From Bacteroidaceae bacterium (GTDB taxonomy: Bacteria > Bacteroidota > Bacteroidia > Bacteroidales > Bacteroidaceae): a DNA stretch of 44,284 nucleotides. Positions 3,756 through 41,227 of this stretch are shown one piece after another. Position numbers and translations under genes: made by a program. Location: positions 1-44,284 of the forward strand of contig JAFYAT010000053.1 in assembly GCA_017540585.1 (NCBI GenBank), given 5' to 3'. Numbering within the stretch: the first letter of the stretch is position 1; every line of letters starts with the position of its first letter. Below the pieces are notes generated by a model, which saw nothing but the letters and a program-made list of their open reading frames with translations, was not told where the DNA came from and made no database searches.

Positions 3756-4149
3756 GGGGCTGACTGGATTTGACAGCGAGATGAAGTGGTATGTAAGCAT
3801 GCAGTGAGTCGCTGGCCCTCACTATAATATCAGTCTGCAAAAGTTTAATTGGCGAAAATACTTACGCTCTCGCTGCTTAATCGAAGTATAGTAGATTAGC
3901 CTTATTTCCTTGCCAGGCGAGGAAACGAGACATCGCCCTGGAAGCTGTTGTTCCGAAGCGTCCAGATCAGCGGTGCTAAAAATTCGGGAATAGTCATGCG
4001 TAGCCTCGTGCGTATGATGAAACTTAGAGGATAAGGGTGTGATTGGTGGTCCAGGTCTTGTTACATCACGAAAACCGAAGGCTGGAATAAGCATGTAGAA
4101 AGCGTATGGCTTCCTTGTTTGGACGAGGGTTCAATCCCCTCCAGCTCCA
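3756..4149 (+). ncRNA. ssrA: transfer-messenger RNA (tmRNA)
   Basis: The 5' end GGGGCTGACTGGATTTGACA is the conserved tmRNA start, and the 3' end GGTTCAATCCCCTCCAGCTCC gives a T arm and an acceptor strand whose last seven bases pair with the first seven (one G-U). The CCA is not encoded. The tag reading frame starts at the resume codon GGC at 3851 and reads GENTYALAA, stop at 3878-3880. The RNA rescues stalled ribosomes and marks the unfinished protein for proteolysis through the hydrophobic ALAA end. Its length of about 394 nt fits Bacteroidales. It is transcribed from its own promoter just upstream and followed by a large hairpin. An open frame starting at 4106 inside the 3' part is not a gene. 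Confidence 0.97.
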
Positions 4150-4156
4150 CAAAACG

Positions 4157-16362: not shown

Positions 16363-20506
<4,144 letters not shown>

Positions 20507-34630: not shown

Positions 34631-34677
34631 CTTTTGTGTGGTTCTACAGGAATCCGTATATACAATGATTTTTCTGC

Positions 34678-34909
34678 CCACGAATTACACGAATTTACAC
34701 GAACTTCAAGTTCTCTTATTTGTGTTATTACACTAAGACAACTCGTGTTGTCTGCAAATAACACGAATGCCATCCGGTTTCATGCCGTGTACCAGATTAG
34801 TGTAATTGGCTACGCCGAGCTAAAGGTTCGTAATTGCACGAGCAATTCTTCGTGTAATGAAAACAACAATGAGTTACTAATTTTTAGTGTAAATTCGTGT
34901 AATTCGTGG
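34678..34909. repeat. dispersed element copy A with 23-bp terminal inverted repeats
   Basis: Positions 34678-34700 are the exact reverse complement of 34887-34909. Words of the type ACACGAATT fill the ends. Inside, AGACAAC-TCGT-GTTGTCT (34736-34753) forms a short hairpin. The same element, in opposite orientation and diverged, lies at 40931-41143. The 98-aa frame crossing it is not considered a gene. Confidence 0.9.
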
Positions 34910-34983
34910 TAAAAAAAATTCCAAAACAAAATCAGAAGGACTTTCTTTTTAAACAGTAATGCAGGTTAAACCTTTTACCATGC

Positions 34984-35021
34984 TTTCTGTCTAACTTCCA
35001 AATATAAACTATAGACAGAAA
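34984..35021. promoter_or_regulatory. 10-bp inverted repeat before the GH3 gene
   Basis: TTTCTGTCTA (34984-34993) and TAGACAGAAA (35012-35021) are perfect complements, 18 nt apart, 30 nt before the start codon. Either an operator for a dimeric regulator or a leader hairpin. Confidence 0.55.
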
Positions 35022-35051
35022 AATGATTAACTAACTTGAAACATTTGATAA

Positions 35052-37994
35052 ATGGCTAAGACAAGAATTTACTCCATCTTACTGTGCTCCATGCTTGCTG
35101 TTGCACCTATGGAAGCACAGGTAAAGAACAAGGCAGTCACATTTGACTCATACAAATGGGGCTTCGGAGACATTAACGCTGAGGATGGCACAATATGCCA
35201 TACCTTCACAATGAAGAACAATTCAAAGGAAGAAATCCGTATCACCAAGACAGTACCAAGTTGCGACTGCATACGTGCTTTCTACACTACCGACGCCATC
35301 AAACCAGGTGGCGAGGCTAAGGTTATGATTTCGCTTTCACCTACCAAGGGCGAAGGCAAGACATTCCGCTCTGTAGAATTGCTTGACCAGAACGGAAAAA
35401 CCCTTGGTTCACTCACAGCCTTCGGTAATGTGAAACGTGGTGCAGCATACGATGCAAACCACAAGTATCCTTATCAGGACACTAACCTCACCTATCAGGA
35501 ACGTGTGGAAAACCTTATCTCTTTGCTCACTCCTAAGGAGAAGGTAGGACTGATGATGAACAAATCCGTTAGTATCGACCGTCTCGGCATCCCTTCATAC
35601 AACTGGTGGAACGAGGCTTGCCACGGTGTGCGTCAAGGCGGTTACACTGTCTATCCACAGCCAATAGGTATGGCAGCAGCCTTTGACTCCAAACTTGTAT
35701 ATGATGTATTCTCAACGGTATCAGACGAGGCACGTGCCAACTGGAACCGTTCTGACCATAACATATTCAACGTGCCAATGGGTGTGACCTACTACCCAGG
35801 CAATCCTGAGCTTACATACTGGTGTCCTAACGTGAATATCTTCCGTGACCCTCGCTGGGGACGTGGTCAGGAGACTTGTGGTGAAGACCCATACCTCAAT
35901 GCCGTGCTCGGAGTACAGACGGTACTCGGTATGCAGGGCAACGATGACAGATACTTCAAGACTCATGCATGTGCAAAGCACTATGCCGTACATAGCGGTC
36001 CTGAACCTCTCCGTCATAGCTACAACGCAACAGTATCTATGCGTGACCTTTGGGAGACATACCTTCCTGCCTTCAAGGCTCTCGTGAAGAAAGGTAACGT
36101 GCGTGAGGTGATGTGTGCATACAACAGATACGAAGGCAAGCCTTGTTGTACAAGTGACCGACTACTCGTTGACATTCTCCGTCGTAAGTGGGGTTACGAT
36201 GCAATCGTGCTTACTGACTGCGATGCCATCAACAACTTCTACAACAGAGGACAGCACGAGACACACAAAGACCCTCTGTCTGCATCCGTAGATGCTGTAC
36301 TCAACGGTACAGACCTCGAATGTGGTAAGGTGTTCATGGTACTCACAGAGGCTCTTGACAAGGGTCTCATCAACGAGTCAACTCTTGACGAACACCTCCG
36401 CAAGACTCTCTACGGACGATTTGAACTCGGAATGTTCGACCCAGAAGATATGATTCCTTGGAAAGACCTCAAGCCAGAGGTGATAAGCAGCGAGTCAAAC
36501 AACGACCTCGCAGTACAGGCAGCACGTGAGTCAATGGTTCTGCTCAAGAACAATGGTGTGCTTCCACTCTCAAAGAGTATAAAGACCATTGCCGTTGTAG
36601 GTCCTAACGCTGACGACGTGGAACTGCTCAACGGTAACTATGGCGGTACTCCTACAGACAATCACAAGCACTCACTTCTCGAAGGTATCAAGAAGGCAGT
36701 ACCAGGAGCAAAGGTAATATACAAGAAGGCTTGTGAACTTACAGACGAATACAATACGGTTCACCATCTTGGCGAGTTCAACGATGGTAAGGGTGTGTTC
36801 GTGGAGTTCTACAACAACCGTAACCTTGCTGGCAAGCCAGACGTGACTGGCTACTACGACAAGTTGGAGTTCTCTACTTTCGGCGCATGGGGATTTGCCC
36901 AGGGCATCAACAACGACAGTCTCTCTGTACGTGTAAGCGGTAAGTACAAAGCAACATTCACTGGCGAGATGAAATATACGCTCAATACCGACAACGGTTA
37001 CTTGCTCAAGATAAACGGCGAGGTAGTGGAAGATGCAAAGCCAGAGATGCGTCGTGGCTTCGGTTTCCGTCGTGAGGCAAACTACAAGTCATTCAACGTG
37101 AAGGAAGGTGAGACATACGACGTAGTGATAGAGTACAAGCACGGCAACGGAAACTTTGCCATGCTCCGTGGCGACATCTGTGAGCGTCGTCTCGTTGACT
37201 ACACAGACCTCCAGAAGGAAGTAAAGGATGCTGATGCCATCATCGTCATTGGCGGTATCTCTGCCCGACTCGAGGGTGAAGGCGGTGACAAGGCAGACAT
37301 TGAACTTCCAAAGGTTCAGCAACGTCTCGTAAGGGCTATGCACGCAACAGGCAAGCCTGTGGTCATGGTCAACTGCTCTGGCTCTGCCATCGCATTCGGC
37401 AGCATAGAAGACCAGTATGACGCACTCGTACAAGCATGGTACGCTGGTCAGGGTGGCGCAAAGGCACTTGCCGAGGTTATCTTCGGTGACTATAACCCAT
37501 CAGGAAAGTTGCCAGTCACATTCTACGCTTCGAACAATGACCTCCCAGACTTCCTCGACTACAGCATGGATAACCGCACATACCGCTACTTCCGTGGTAC
37601 CCCACTCTATGCCTTCGGCTATGGTCTCTCATACACCACATTCGAGTATGGCAAGGCAAAGATAAGCAAGACATCCATGAAGGCAGACGGCAAGGTTACT
37701 CTCACTATTCCTGTAAAGAACACAGGAAAACGTGAAGGCGACGAGATAGTACAGGTATATGTCAAGGCACTTGACTACGCCGAAGCGCCTATAAAGTCAC
37801 TCCGTGGATTTGCAAGAGTACACCTTGCACCAGGTGAGACAGGCAATGCCGTTGTCACACTTGATGGTGAAGCATTCGAATACTACGACCCATCAATAGA
37901 TGAACTCTCAACACGTAGCGGACGATACAAGATTCTCTATGGTAGTTCATCACTTGACAAGGACCTCAAGGAGATAGAGTTTACAGTTAAGTAA
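35052..37994 (+). CDS. GH3 glycosidase with N-terminal DUF1573 domain
   Basis: A 980-aa exported enzyme. Signal peptide about 1-23. Residues about 27-130 are a DUF1573-type Ig-like domain (WGFGDINAEDGTICHTFTMKNNS, VPSCDC, IKPGGEAKVMI). The GH3 catalytic barrel follows (about 145-470) with YNWWNEACHGV, RGQETCGEDPYLN and the nucleophile Asp389 in VLTDCDAINN. The alpha/beta sandwich domain is split by a PA14-like insert (about 590-720), and an Fn3-like domain ends the protein. WWNEACHG and TDCDA are typical of Bacteroidales beta-xylosidases, so xylo-oligosaccharides are the likely substrate, but beta-glucosidase activity is possible. The next gene is a GH8, in agreement with xylan use. DUF1573 at the front is unusual for GH3. 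Confidence 0.9.
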   Translation: MAKTRIYSILLCSMLAVAPMEAQVKNKAVTFDSYKWGFGDINAEDGTICHTFTMKNNSKEEIRITKTVPSCDCIRAFYTTDAIKPGGEAKVMISLSPTKGEGKTFRSVELLDQNGKTLGSLTAFGNVKRGAAYDANHKYPYQDTNLTYQERVENLISLLTPKEKVGLMMNKSVSIDRLGIPSYNWWNEACHGVRQGGYTVYPQPIGMAAAFDSKLVYDVFSTVSDEARANWNRSDHNIFNVPMGVTYYPGNPELTYWCPNVNIFRDPRWGRGQETCGEDPYLNAVLGVQTVLGMQGNDDRYFKTHACAKHYAVHSGPEPLRHSYNATVSMRDLWETYLPAFKALVKKGNVREVMCAYNRYEGKPCCTSDRLLVDILRRKWGYDAIVLTDCDAINNFYNRGQHETHKDPLSASVDAVLNGTDLECGKVFMVLTEALDKGLINESTLDEHLRKTLYGRFELGMFDPEDMIPWKDLKPEVISSESNNDLAVQAARESMVLLKNNGVLPLSKSIKTIAVVGPNADDVELLNGNYGGTPTDNHKHSLLEGIKKAVPGAKVIYKKACELTDEYNTVHHLGEFNDGKGVFVEFYNNRNLAGKPDVTGYYDKLEFSTFGAWGFAQGINNDSLSVRVSGKYKATFTGEMKYTLNTDNGYLLKINGEVVEDAKPEMRRGFGFRREANYKSFNVKEGETYDVVIEYKHGNGNFAMLRGDICERRLVDYTDLQKEVKDADAIIVIGGISARLEGEGGDKADIELPKVQQRLVRAMHATGKPVVMVNCSGSAIAFGSIEDQYDALVQAWYAGQGGAKALAEVIFGDYNPSGKLPVTFYASNNDLPDFLDYSMDNRTYRYFRGTPLYAFGYGLSYTTFEYGKAKISKTSMKADGKVTLTIPVKNTGKREGDEIVQVYVKALDYAEAPIKSLRGFARVHLAPGETGNAVVTLDGEAFEYYDPSIDELSTRSGRYKILYGSSSLDKDLKEIEFTVK

Positions 37995-38016
37995 ACACCC
38001 GACTTTTTGACAAATG

Positions 38017-38074
38017 AAAATTTAGGAAATTAAAAGAATAAAGCATAATTTTCTTTTAATTTTCTAAATTTTCG
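38017..38074 (+). terminator. terminator after the GH3 gene
   Basis: 23-bp stem with a single G-U (38017-38039 with 38052-38074), AT-rich, 12-nt loop. It separates the GH3 transcript from the GH8 promoter. Confidence 0.8.
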
Positions 38075-38159
38075 TTACAAAAACAACAAAACACAAAACT
38101 CAATAACATAAAAACAACAAAAATATCACAATCAGACGCGTTAATTCCGATAACGTTTG

Positions 38160-38167
38160 TATATTTG
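38160..38167 (+). promoter_or_regulatory. -7 element of the GH8 gene
   Basis: TATATTTG matches TAnnTTTG. It lies just after the upstream in-frame ATG at 38157, so transcripts would start near 38174, and the gene must start at 38193. No clear -33 element. Confidence 0.55.
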
Positions 38168-38192
38168 TGCTATTCTAACGAACAAGAGAACC

Positions 38193-39485
38193 ATGATCCA
38201 ACCATTAAAAGCAATAGCAGTAGGCATGTCCATGATTATGGCAAGCTCACTAAGCAATGATTGCCCAAACAGCATTATGGCACAGACACCAGTAGCAAAG
38301 CCTGCATACAGATACAAGAACGTATTCCGTGAGGCGGGTCATTCAGAGAAAGAGATTGACAAGAAGTTGAATGCCGTATTCGACTCCTTGTTCTTTGGTG
38401 AGAACCGCATATACTTTGAAGTCGGTGATGACATGGGCTATGTGTCTGACATCAAGAACCATGATGTCCGCACAGAAGGAATGTCATACGGACTCATGAT
38501 TGCCGTACAGTTTGACCGCAAGGACATCTTCGACCGTATATGGCGATGGAGCAAGAAGTACATGCAGAATCAAGAAGGTGCTTACGAGGGCTATTTCCGT
38601 TGGAGTTGCAAGACAGACGGTACATCAAATGCAATGGGACCTGCTTCTGACGGTGAACTGTACTTCATCACCTCCCTACTCTTTGCATCAAACAGATGGG
38701 GCAACGATACAGGCATCAACTACCTTGCAGAGGCACAGCACATTCTCAAGTGTATGGAACCAAGGGAGACAACATTCCCTGCTTTCAGAAACTTCCCTAC
38801 ACGCACAGTAAGAATGTCACTCATAGACGAGAAGACTAAGCTCATTACCTTCGTTCCGGGTTCTAACCATACAGACCCTTCATATCATCTCCCTGCCTTC
38901 TATGAGGTATGGGCACGATATGCACAGGACGGTAAGTCAGACTATTGGATGGAATGTGCCAAGGCTGCACGTGAATACCTCCACAAGAGTATTCATCCAG
39001 AGACGGGTCTCACTCCTGACTACAATAACTATGACGGTACACTCCTGAACTCACGCCAACTTATAGGTGATGCTTTCCGCTACGACTCATGGCGAGTGCC
39101 TATGAACATCGTACTCGATTACACATGGTCAGGTGGCAAGGATGAAGAATGGCAGAGGATGTACGAGAACAAGATACAGAACTTCTTCTACTCACAAGGC
39201 ATAGACACCTTCGTTGACCAGTACAACGTAGATGGTACGACACCAGAGAGGATTCTCGGTGCTGGAGGCTACACTAAGTTACGCCATTCACTCGGAATAG
39301 TATCTACTCTTGCAGCTGCTTCATTGGTATCAACCAACGAGCATCGTATGGAGTTTGTTGACAGAATATGGAATTCATCACATCTCCCATACGCCGATGG
39401 TTACTACGATGCCTACTATGACGGTCTCATGCGACTCTTTGCCATGATGCATCTGTCAGGAAGATATAGGGTCATAGACAAATAG
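38193..39485 (+). CDS. GH8 reducing-end xylose-releasing exo-oligoxylanase type
   Basis: A 430-aa GH8 enzyme from ATG 38193. The (alpha/alpha)6 family signs are clear: VRTEGMSYGLMIAVQFD with the general-acid Glu, FRWSCKTDGTSNAMGPASDGELYFITSLLFA, and FRYDSWRVPMNIVLDY with the catalytic-base region. Spacing and sequence fit the reducing-end xylose-releasing exo-oligoxylanase (Rex) subgroup rather than chitosanases or endoglucanases. The N-terminus (MIQPLKAIAVGMSMIMASSLS...IMAQ) is a possible signal peptide, so the enzyme is probably periplasmic. It shortens xylo-oligosaccharides from the reducing end, complementing the upstream GH3. It has its own promoter element. Confidence 0.88.
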   Translation: MIQPLKAIAVGMSMIMASSLSNDCPNSIMAQTPVAKPAYRYKNVFREAGHSEKEIDKKLNAVFDSLFFGENRIYFEVGDDMGYVSDIKNHDVRTEGMSYGLMIAVQFDRKDIFDRIWRWSKKYMQNQEGAYEGYFRWSCKTDGTSNAMGPASDGELYFITSLLFASNRWGNDTGINYLAEAQHILKCMEPRETTFPAFRNFPTRTVRMSLIDEKTKLITFVPGSNHTDPSYHLPAFYEVWARYAQDGKSDYWMECAKAAREYLHKSIHPETGLTPDYNNYDGTLLNSRQLIGDAFRYDSWRVPMNIVLDYTWSGGKDEEWQRMYENKIQNFFYSQGIDTFVDQYNVDGTTPERILGAGGYTKLRHSLGIVSTLAAASLVSTNEHRMEFVDRIWNSSHLPYADGYYDAYYDGLMRLFAMMHLSGRYRVIDK

Positions 39486-39617
39486 AAAGCGTAAGTCGTA
39501 AGGCAAAGGGCTAAAACGAAACAAGTCAAAAGCGTGATGGTTAAGCCCACAAACTATAAACCATAAACGCTCAACTATCTTCACAAGAACAAGAAAGAAA
39601 CATAACATCCATAACCT

Positions 39618-40193
39618 ATGAGATTATTTCATTTACGTCATTTGACACTCATTTGGGCGATTATAGCATCAATTGCTTTCACAAGCAGTTGTAATAATGA
39701 CTATGGACCCGATAGGAATGTCTATTATGCATATTACACGTTTTCGGACGATATGCTTGACCTCTTTGACATTACTGTCAGCATCATAGATGCAGATTTT
39801 AATACTCTTGTGGAGCAGAATTTCAATACAGCCACGCCTTACGAGTATGACACAGAGAACATGAACAAGTCATTCCTGATTAAATGCAATGCCAAGGACC
39901 GATACAACGTTCTTCTGCTTTGCAGCATGAAAGCAAAGTCAACATACGATGAATTGTTAGTTTCAGGAAGACTATACGAGTTAAGATACGGACACTATAT
40001 TCACAGAATGCAGAATAACGAAACAGACGAAGAAGCAACTCAAATGGTAAAATCATCATGTAAGATAAAATCCATGGAGATTTCCTCCGATGTTCTTAGC
40101 ACTTATGACCGCAAATATGGAATGACCAAACTCGGAAAAATCATGGAAGAACTTGAACATGAATTATCACTCGATTCAAGTTTCAATCAATAA
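39618..40193 (+). CDS. lipoprotein of unknown function (191 aa)
   Basis: Signal peptide with lipobox TSSC (Cys25), followed by NNDYGPD. The mature part (about 165 aa) has no motif I recognise, though it has a beta-rich first half (VYYAYYTFSDDMLDLFDITVSIIDAD) and a helical C-terminal third. It lies alone, 132 nt after the GH8 gene, and ends before a strong terminator. It may be a periplasmic or surface lipoprotein. Any link to the glycosidases is unsupported. Confidence 0.7.
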   Translation: MRLFHLRHLTLIWAIIASIAFTSSCNNDYGPDRNVYYAYYTFSDDMLDLFDITVSIIDADFNTLVEQNFNTATPYEYDTENMNKSFLIKCNAKDRYNVLLLCSMKAKSTYDELLVSGRLYELRYGHYIHRMQNNETDEEATQMVKSSCKIKSMEISSDVLSTYDRKYGMTKLGKIMEELEHELSLDSSFNQ

Positions 40194-40241
40194 AGATGTT
40201 CTCAGATATAAGATATTAGGTCAATCTTCTAATATCCACAC

Positions 40242-40296
40242 AATAAGAAAAAGCCATAGAAACTATGAATGTATAGTTTCTATGGCTTTTCTTATT
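40242..40296 (+). terminator. strong bidirectional terminator
   Basis: 24-bp stem with one bulged A (40242-40266 with 40273-40296), 6-nt loop, with A-rich left and T-rich right flanks. It sits between the convergent lipoprotein and nrdG genes and can serve both. Confidence 0.92.
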
Positions 40297-40389
40297 TATG
40301 CCTCATTCTCCAAAGTTCTATCAGTTTCTTTCGACCTATACGGTCATTCTTTCACAGAGGAAGCTGATGTCAATAGGATTGATTAACAA

Positions 40390-40872
40390 TCACATATCAA
40401 CCAATACAACCTCGCCTTTAGCCAAGGATTGTTTCACATCTATTATTCTTTGGTTGCCACTTCCTCTGAAACGTAGGGAAATATCACGCTGAGCAAGTAT
40501 GAATGGGCTATCCACAAGTACGTCAATCGTTTCGAGCAAAGGACGGAAACGAGGATTATCAACAACATTCTCCCAACGATAACCAGTGTAGCACCAGATG
40601 TTCTTTCCAAGGCGACTCTTAATCTCACGGGCAAGTACTGTCACATCCTCCGCCTGAAAGAATGGGTCACCTCCCGAGAACGTGACAGGAAAGCCATTAT
40701 ACTCAATGACCTTCATCACCTCTTCGAGAGTTGTCTCCTTTCCTGCCTCATAGTCCCAGGACTGAGGATTATGGCAGCCTTCACACTTGTGAGTGCAACC
40801 AGAGAAATATATGGAAGTGCGAAGCCCAGGTCCATCAACGCTGGTTCCTTCGACAATATTCAGAATACGCAT
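40390..40872 (-). CDS. nrdG: anaerobic ribonucleotide reductase activating protein
   Basis: A 160-aa radical SAM protein; ATG 40872 (MRILNIVEGTSVDGPG) is chosen since the family starts there, four residues inside the longest frame. The 4Fe-4S site is CTHKCEGC (Cys26, Cys30, Cys33) and SGGDPF follows at the SAM-binding site. It uses S-adenosylmethionine to put the glycyl radical on NrdD. The partner gene is upstream on the same strand but, unusually, 355 nt away and beyond a strong terminator and a dispersed repeat element. No consensus promoter is seen directly before nrdG, so how it is expressed is open. Confidence 0.95.
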   Translation of the reverse strand: MRILNIVEGTSVDGPGLRTSIYFSGCTHKCEGCHNPQSWDYEAGKETTLEEVMKVIEYNGFPVTFSGGDPFFQAEDVTVLAREIKSRLGKNIWCYTGYRWENVVDNPRFRPLLETIDVLVDSPFILAQRDISLRFRGSGNQRIIDVKQSLAKGEVVLVDM

Positions 40873-40930
40873 CCTTTCCCCCAAGATTTTGAATAAGTAA
40901 ATTCTCTTTGTTCATGGAAGATGTTTTCAG

Positions 40931-41143
40931 CCACGAATTACACGAATTTTCACTAACATTTTCCATTAGCTTTAACGCCACGCATATATTACACTAAAAA
41001 TTGCGTCGCAATTACGAATTTCACGAATTCCTTCAACCGCCAATCATCCGAACGGCATTCGTGTCATTCGCAGACAACACATGTTGTCTTAGTGTAATAA
41101 AACAAGAGTGCTTGAAATTCGTGTCAATTCGTGTAATTCGTGG
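40931..41143. repeat. dispersed element copy B, opposite orientation to copy A
   Basis: The first 18 bases and the last 18 bases are perfect reverse complements (CCACGAATTACACGAATT ends), and the inner hairpin is AGACAAC-ACAT-GTTGTCT (41072-41089). The reverse complement aligns with copy A over most of its length, with best agreement in the first 110 bases. It lies between nrdG and the nrdD terminator. Confidence 0.9.
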
Positions 41144-41189
41144 TAAGAGAAAACATTGCCCACACGATTTATTGTAGAAATAAAAAGAA

Positions 41190-41212
41190 GCCCCACCCCA
41201 AAAGGGTGGGGC
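41190..41212 (-). terminator. nrdD terminator
   Basis: 9-bp GC-rich stem GCCCCACCC (41190-41198) with GGGTGGGGC (41204-41212), 5-nt loop. On the - strand it is followed by TTCTTTTTATTT: a textbook Rho-independent terminator 16 nt after the nrdD stop. Confidence 0.93.
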
Positions 41213-41227
41213 CTTCATGCTTATTTA

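Follow-up and report, generated by a model that had tools for sequence, protein, structure and literature searches.

A MITE-like family of palindromic intergenic elements in two sister rumen species of Bacteroidaceae, and a 21-bp module carried by some copies

Our data point to a family of short palindromic elements that we read, with a probability of about 0.7, as MITE-like, helper-dependent non-autonomous DNA transposons. Several features are supported directly: the family is dispersed, its members have common ends, duplications flank them more often than chance would have it, their sites are mostly intergenic, and presence and absence differ between two species, that of the window and a sister (G050, which we judge to be the water-buffalo rumen MAG RGIG8147). 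By the window we mean the whole stretch analyzed, 44,284 nucleotides; it corresponds to contig C119 in an assembly that has 149 contigs, totals 3.62 Mb, and is 86% complete.

Architecture and copy number

The initial annotation had described two copies of an element in the window, in opposite orientations, with inverted-repeat ends (23 bp in one, 18 bp in the other) and an identical 7-bp stem under differing loops, and repeat and alignment checks bore this out. The inverted repeat is perfect over 23 bp in copy A (34678-34909, 232 bp) and over 18 bp in copy B (40931-41143, 213 bp); by the alignment tool's count for two rows, B matches A with 83% mean column identity on the opposite strand versus 75% on the same strand. 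The stem AGACAAC/GTTGTCT is identical in both copies, while the 4-nucleotide loop reads TCGT in A and ATGT in B (minus strand). A 16-bp end word has six matches in the window at up to 3 mismatches, four of them exact, versus 0.31 expected. The boundaries first assigned were nevertheless too narrow: the 18- and 23-bp ends are inner repeats, and similarity within the family runs on outward to outer inverted repeats. As the flanks align past them, the inner CCACG ends were rejected as the termini of all copies. The parts of the two copies are as follows.

34640..34677, plus strand: outer left end of copy A, GGTTCTACAGGAATCC... and then a T-rich tract; 3 mismatches to GGTTCTACAAGAATTCGTG
34678..34909, plus strand: core of copy A, with inner inverted repeats of CACGAATT-type words and three internal hairpins
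34736..34753, plus strand: hairpin AGACAAC-TCGT-GTTGTCT inside the core of copy A
34808..34828, plus strand: 21-bp module GGCTACGCCGAGCTAAAGGTT in copy A, preceded by TT and missing at that place in 20 of 25 aligned rows
34910..34942, plus strand: outer right end of copy A, decayed (7 mismatches in 19)
40931..41143, minus strand: core of copy B, opposite in orientation to copy A and without the module
41072..41089, minus strand: hairpin of copy B, with the 7-bp stem of copy A and a different loop
41144..41181, minus strand: outer end of copy B, ATTTCTACAATAAATCGTGTGGG..., 4 mismatches

The second outer end of copy B, below 40931, is unrecognizable, with 9 mismatches. Neither copy had been judged to code for a plausible protein. 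A Pfam search with a 98-aa open reading frame (ORF) across copy A gave no match at an E value of ≤0.01, and the copies are too short to encode a transposase. The genes flanking copy B have Pfam matches to NRDD and radical-SAM. Beside copy B, 3' of the nrdD-like gene, a G/C-rich hairpin with a T run (41185-41215) looks terminator-like by eye. Elsewhere in the window lie another dispersed repeat (about 38016-38121), pieces of which match about ten places in G050, and a tmRNA gene (3756-4152; RF00023).

Complete copies are nearly palindromic and measure about 270 to 330 bp. In them, the outer inverted repeat (GGTTCTACAAGAATTCGTGTGG on the left, its complement on the right) sits 30 to 40 bp outside the inner ends; a T/A tract comes next, and the arms, made up of recurring CACGAATT-type words, enclose three short hairpins. 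Two copies proved to be an undercount. With copy A as the query, 85 matching pieces were found in the window's genome, where, among the loci examined, 20 distinct copies have both inner ends (24 rows, minus three nested duplicates and minus L022, which is broken by a contig end); further copies are present in the sister species. An 18-bp end word has 48 matches there at up to 2 mismatches, and a 19-bp outer end has 33 at up to 3 mismatches, a few of them lone ends; the reversed controls gave 0 in both cases. The contrary case raised at the outset, that of two copies only or of mere tandem words, is excluded by these 20 copies, and tandem word slippage alone was rejected because boundaries and an ordered interior are common to the copies. 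By ORF heuristics, the 20 copies are located between genes, with seven overlapped by short ORFs of up to 129 aa and one, L020, overlapped by the earliest possible start of a 1,530-bp ORF.

Not every copy has recognizable outer ends. We scored 24 cores from the window's genome and the sister, leaving out L023, which is short, and any copy with a single inner end. At up to 7 mismatches in 19, both outer ends were recognized in 10 cores, one in 8, and none in 6; with the reversed pattern as a control, 1 of 48 ends passed. In the last six cores both inner ends are intact, and 3 of the 12 outer ends are borderline at 8 mismatches. Conversely, elements of 56 and 177 bp have nothing but the ends in common with the family, and a 144-bp element has the family ends and part of the interior. 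The 56-bp element, scarcely more than two outer ends, occupies a shared site in the two species with no difference in sequence (G000:C24:46178-46233 and G050:C156:8273-8328).

Mobility, distribution, and the search for a helper

Six of the 18 end pairs that we selected by hand (17 from two lists of end pairs, after alternates, overlaps, and poor ends were dropped, plus L007) are bordered by direct repeats of at least 8 bp, versus about 0.4 expected and 2.4% of mispaired flanks. Their lengths are 8, 8, 8, 11, 13, and 13 bp, and most are A/T-rich; only two, GATAAAAT and TTTTATTT, of 8 bp each, abut both ends exactly, and the other 12 pairs have no such repeat. Over 26 automated end pairs, some of them overlapping, 103 of 208 bases match versus a permuted mean of 72 (standard deviation, 7; P = 5e-5). 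Since the repeat lengths are uneven and most pairs have none, no single enzyme family can be named from them.

Comparison with the sister species gave further evidence on mobility. The interval that holds copy B is 187 bp in G050 versus 366 bp in the window, and it contains an array of AATTAAC words without the element. For copy A, the downstream gene is present in G050, the stretch from there upstream to the contig end is without a copy, and the upstream gene differs. An exact empty site was not seen in the sister species, as its intergenic DNA is too diverged there, with 88 to 89% identity in the large alignments around copies A and B. One copy (C82 here, L023; C107 in G050, L126) sits in the same flanks in both species, and the C82 copy shows a clean internal deletion relative to C107, lacking the stretch between two ACACGAAT words. 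The flanks of this shared copy are 96 to 99% identical, either because they were exchanged recently or because they are strongly conserved.

Of the 45 genomes covered for the genus, only these two were seen to contain elements with the family outer end. The 19-bp outer end at up to 2 mismatches matches four of the 45, with 15 matches in the window's genome, 8 in G050, and one in each of the other two, beside which no element was seen. When the whole element was used as the query, 17 of 41 genomes (a set without G050) matched at an E value of ≤1e-5; among the matches listed, those outside the window's genome cover the 21-bp module and its edges, except for two to right-end words (G013 and G036). 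The initial annotation placed words of the CGTGTAATTCGTGG type in other Bacteroidetes genomes; they are present in further species of the genus and, a single time, in a genome from another family of the order. Carriage by phages or plasmids was rejected: viral contigs contain no exact match of the end or module pattern, and a search with a full copy gave nothing in phages and a single match in plasmids, which spans 31 bases (E value, 7e-3). PMC text searches for the end words and module sequences returned no papers, and topical searches returned papers on BrickBuilt, Porphyromonas gingivalis, and REP sequences, with no such family in the titles and opening lines of the abstracts listed.

In the scenario that we infer, as regards enzyme type, role of the words, and identity of the helper alike, a DDE-type transposase acting in trans would recognize the outer repeat, possibly with the inner words as binding sites. 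The mobilized element would then insert into A/T-rich intergenic DNA and duplicate its target, by 8 bp in the cleanest cases. The helper may have been lost or may lie in unassembled DNA. A search for a full-length relative with a transposase had been suggested at the outset; no autonomous element with these ends was found in the window's genome or G050, both of which are about 86% complete drafts in which a partner may sit in unassembled DNA. A 12-bp end matches 16 times in the former and 5 times in the latter, and all 21 matches belong to short elements or lone ends; three lie close to the end of a contig, which could conceal a longer partner. The helper is left unnamed because no autonomous partner was found. 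Our search for transposases covered the ISL3 and Y1 families.

ISL3-family elements have ends starting with GG and duplicate 8 bp on insertion. The outer ends and cleanest direct repeats of the present family look similar to these: like MITEs of the ISL3 family, it has ends that start with GG, and its two cleanest copies have exact, A/T-rich 8-bp duplications; in the other copies such repeats are longer, shifted, or absent. Unlike those MITEs, it has no ISL3 transposase in its two hosts, and its match to the ends of an ISL3 element of the genus (GGTTCATCCGAC) stops after GGTTC. ISL3 transposases occur in 12 of the 45 genomes of the genus, and none is in the window's genome or G050, so that an ISL3 helper in the host was rejected; around the 9 of 30 ISL3 loci covered, GGTTCTACAAG was absent at up to 1 mismatch. 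The BrickBuilt MITE of P. gingivalis has a 23-nucleotide tandem minisatellite between a leader and a tail, and its ends are like those of ISPg1 and ISPg9 (PMC4596501). It resembles the present family in belonging to Bacteroidales, in numbering about 20 copies per genome, all of this intergenic, and in having inverted-repeat ends and internal repeats, as well as no internal transposase, both ends intact in few copies, and unequal target duplications (PMC4596501). In contrast, the present family has a palindromic interior of about 9-bp words with hairpins, GGTTCTACAAG ends, and no parent IS that we could find; visual inspection of the 25-row alignment, in which two rows come from one locus, showed no such 23-nucleotide minisatellite.

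Alternative readings

The six cores without recognizable outer ends count against a simple MITE. They would be accounted for if the family consisted of two nested units, an outer MITE with GGTTCTACAAG ends and an inner palindromic element (CCACG...CGTGG) that at some time entered the MITE and also spreads by itself. The outer ends without a core, in the 56- and 177-bp elements, and the six intact cores of 24 fit such a history. We nevertheless consider it unlikely: several core-only copies retain, by eye, the T/A tract that joins core to outer end, and none of the six has a clear flanking duplication, their longest shared flank words being 6 to 8 bases versus a mispaired mean of 6.2 and a largest value of 9. 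A duplication belonging to the core-only copies themselves was thus rejected.

What has been conserved inside the elements bears on two further alternatives. In 18 aligned copies from the window's genome, the columns of the stem words have 93% pairwise identity versus 65% in the others, and between copies A and B the figures are 95% and 50%. Six of the seven pairs of the hairpin AGACAAC-TCGT-GTTGTCT are invariant, and the seventh pairs in 16 of 18 copies. Pairing does not exceed that in shuffled alignments (3 of 60 pairs changed on both sides versus 3.9), 10 to 13 of the 18 copies are unpaired at six variable pairs, and RNAalifold found 0 of 48 pairs with a change on both sides. As the words are nearly invariant and pairing is not above shuffles, it is the sequence words that have been kept, not the pairing, and this fits binding sites used in spread, or by a host protein, better than an RNA. 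A host function, with the words as sites for a nucleoid or regulatory protein and each copy under selection where it stands, would explain the 93% identity of the paired-word columns. Yet copy B is missing from the orthologous interval of the sister, elements with these ends occur in only 2 of the 45 genomes, and selection for transposability accounts for the same pattern of conservation; we therefore regard a host function as improbable.

Less probable still is a palindrome of the REP/REPIN type that moves in single-stranded form and depends on a Y1 (HUH; RAYT/TnpA-REP) transposase supplied in trans. The family is strongly palindromic with hairpins, and the genome has one Y1 gene (G000:C31:18655-19002, L134). 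Orientation is also weakly biased: in 12 tandem contexts, ORF heuristics give 10 copies the same sense as transcription. RAYT subclass 2.6 of Bacteroidetes is reported beside atypical structures with copies elsewhere (PMC6006769), and REP/BIME and REPIN sequences with RAYT are likewise multicopy, palindromic, and intergenic, with hairpins of the size of our module (PMC3733652 and PMC6006769). The present family differs from them in having no GTAG/CGTC-tagged unit that could be seen by eye and no Y1 gene flanked by family sequences. Several palindromes around the Y1 gene are of the CCGTAGGTTCTACGAACCCACGG type, other than the family repeats, G050 has no Y1 match at an E value of ≤0.001, and flanking duplications suit a DDE enzyme better. 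With other repeats around the only Y1 gene of the genome, a RAYT helper was rejected.

A structured or cis-acting RNA, copied for its RNA function, is very improbable: the folds are very stable (z scores of -9.2 for copy A and -7.7 for the element strand of copy B), as is expected of a palindrome, the opposite strand of B gives an equally strong fold (-9.5), covariation stays within the shuffle level, and Rfam has no match over the copies at the gathering score, the weak matches at an E value of ≤1 being to unrelated families and mostly outside the cores. Of the two possibilities originally offered, a mobile element or a structured RNA, the first thus agrees with the dispersed copies, outer ends, direct repeats, and absence of copy B from the sister, whereas the second is opposed by the lack of covariation and of Rfam matches.

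The 21-bp module

Copy A contains a 21-bp block, GGCTACGCCGAGCTAAAGGTT, that most copies lack. In the alignment, such blocks interrupt the elements at three positions, in one case inverted, and one copy carries the module near both ends. Elsewhere, the module sits in other intergenic sequence, often in arrays of short words. Arrays of 8- to 9-nucleotide words (TTCTTCAAT, ATTCCTCA, GTCAATT, and AATTAAC; L103, L104, L106, L107, L113, L121, and G050:C32 near 17860-18048) vary by site and species and often surround it. The module was found in 19 of 301 genomes of the family, namely, 16 of 23 in the window's genus and 3 in one other genus (reversed control, 0), and its copies total 323 when the table for these 19 genomes is summed.

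Of these, 77 distinct instances with a fixed tail were examined, or 87 with a shorter core. TT stands before and after the module in 77 of 77; among the 87, the 81 that have the usual tail all have TT on both sides, and of the six that do not, four are preceded and two followed by TT. These figures carry a search bias, as the following TT was built into the search pattern for 30 loci and further loci came from similarity matches spanning TT. Away from the bait position, in instances some of which lie in the element family, TT is on both sides in 32 of 32. When the gap was closed, the local word was restored only by the removal of exactly 21 bp: 10 of 77 junctions then matched their own flanks at 12 or more of 14 bases, versus 0 to 1 for removals of 15 to 20 or 22 to 27 bp; the remaining 67 were not matched at that level. 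One host sequence is also seen in a module-free form, CAAGTTTCGCAAGTGCTCAAC in the window's genome, where G055 has CAAGTTT-module-CGCAAGTGCTCAAC. The mini-hairpin of the module covaries: stem position 2-8 is G-C in 50 of the 77 instances, A-T in 25, G-T in 2, and A-C in 0, with at least one A-C case among the instances listed in the genome survey.

Tentatively, and at clearly less than even odds, the module, TT^GRCTHCGYCGAGCTAAAGGTT, may be read as an independent unit of mobile DNA, one of the smallest so far known, which enters intergenic repeats of at least two genera with a precise junction at TT (mostly TT^C). So read, it would consist of a conserved 10-nucleotide tag and a 3-bp hairpin, with a GNA triloop on the other strand, and would be moved by an enzyme probably acting on single-stranded DNA. 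The GNA triloop is a type of DNA mini-hairpin of unusual stability. None of the Y1 genes at 10 loci examined is flanked by the module, which occurs at one of them, about 1.1 kb from the match, and G010, G154, G168, and G050 have the module without a Y1 match. Recombination between module-bearing repeats is another possible route of spread. Of the findings presented here, the module is the one that could be categorically unusual.

In conclusion, the elements form a real multicopy MITE-like family, seen in two sister species. As the family was seen in only two sister rumen species and has arms built of recurring words, its copies and empty sites can be traced in strains and its helper can be sought. 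The module, with its uniform junctions and covarying stem, offers a clean test of whether a gene-less sequence of 21 bp spreads alone. Should it do so, mobile DNA would have to be credited with a smaller minimum size, and the enzymes known to move it would have to be listed anew.
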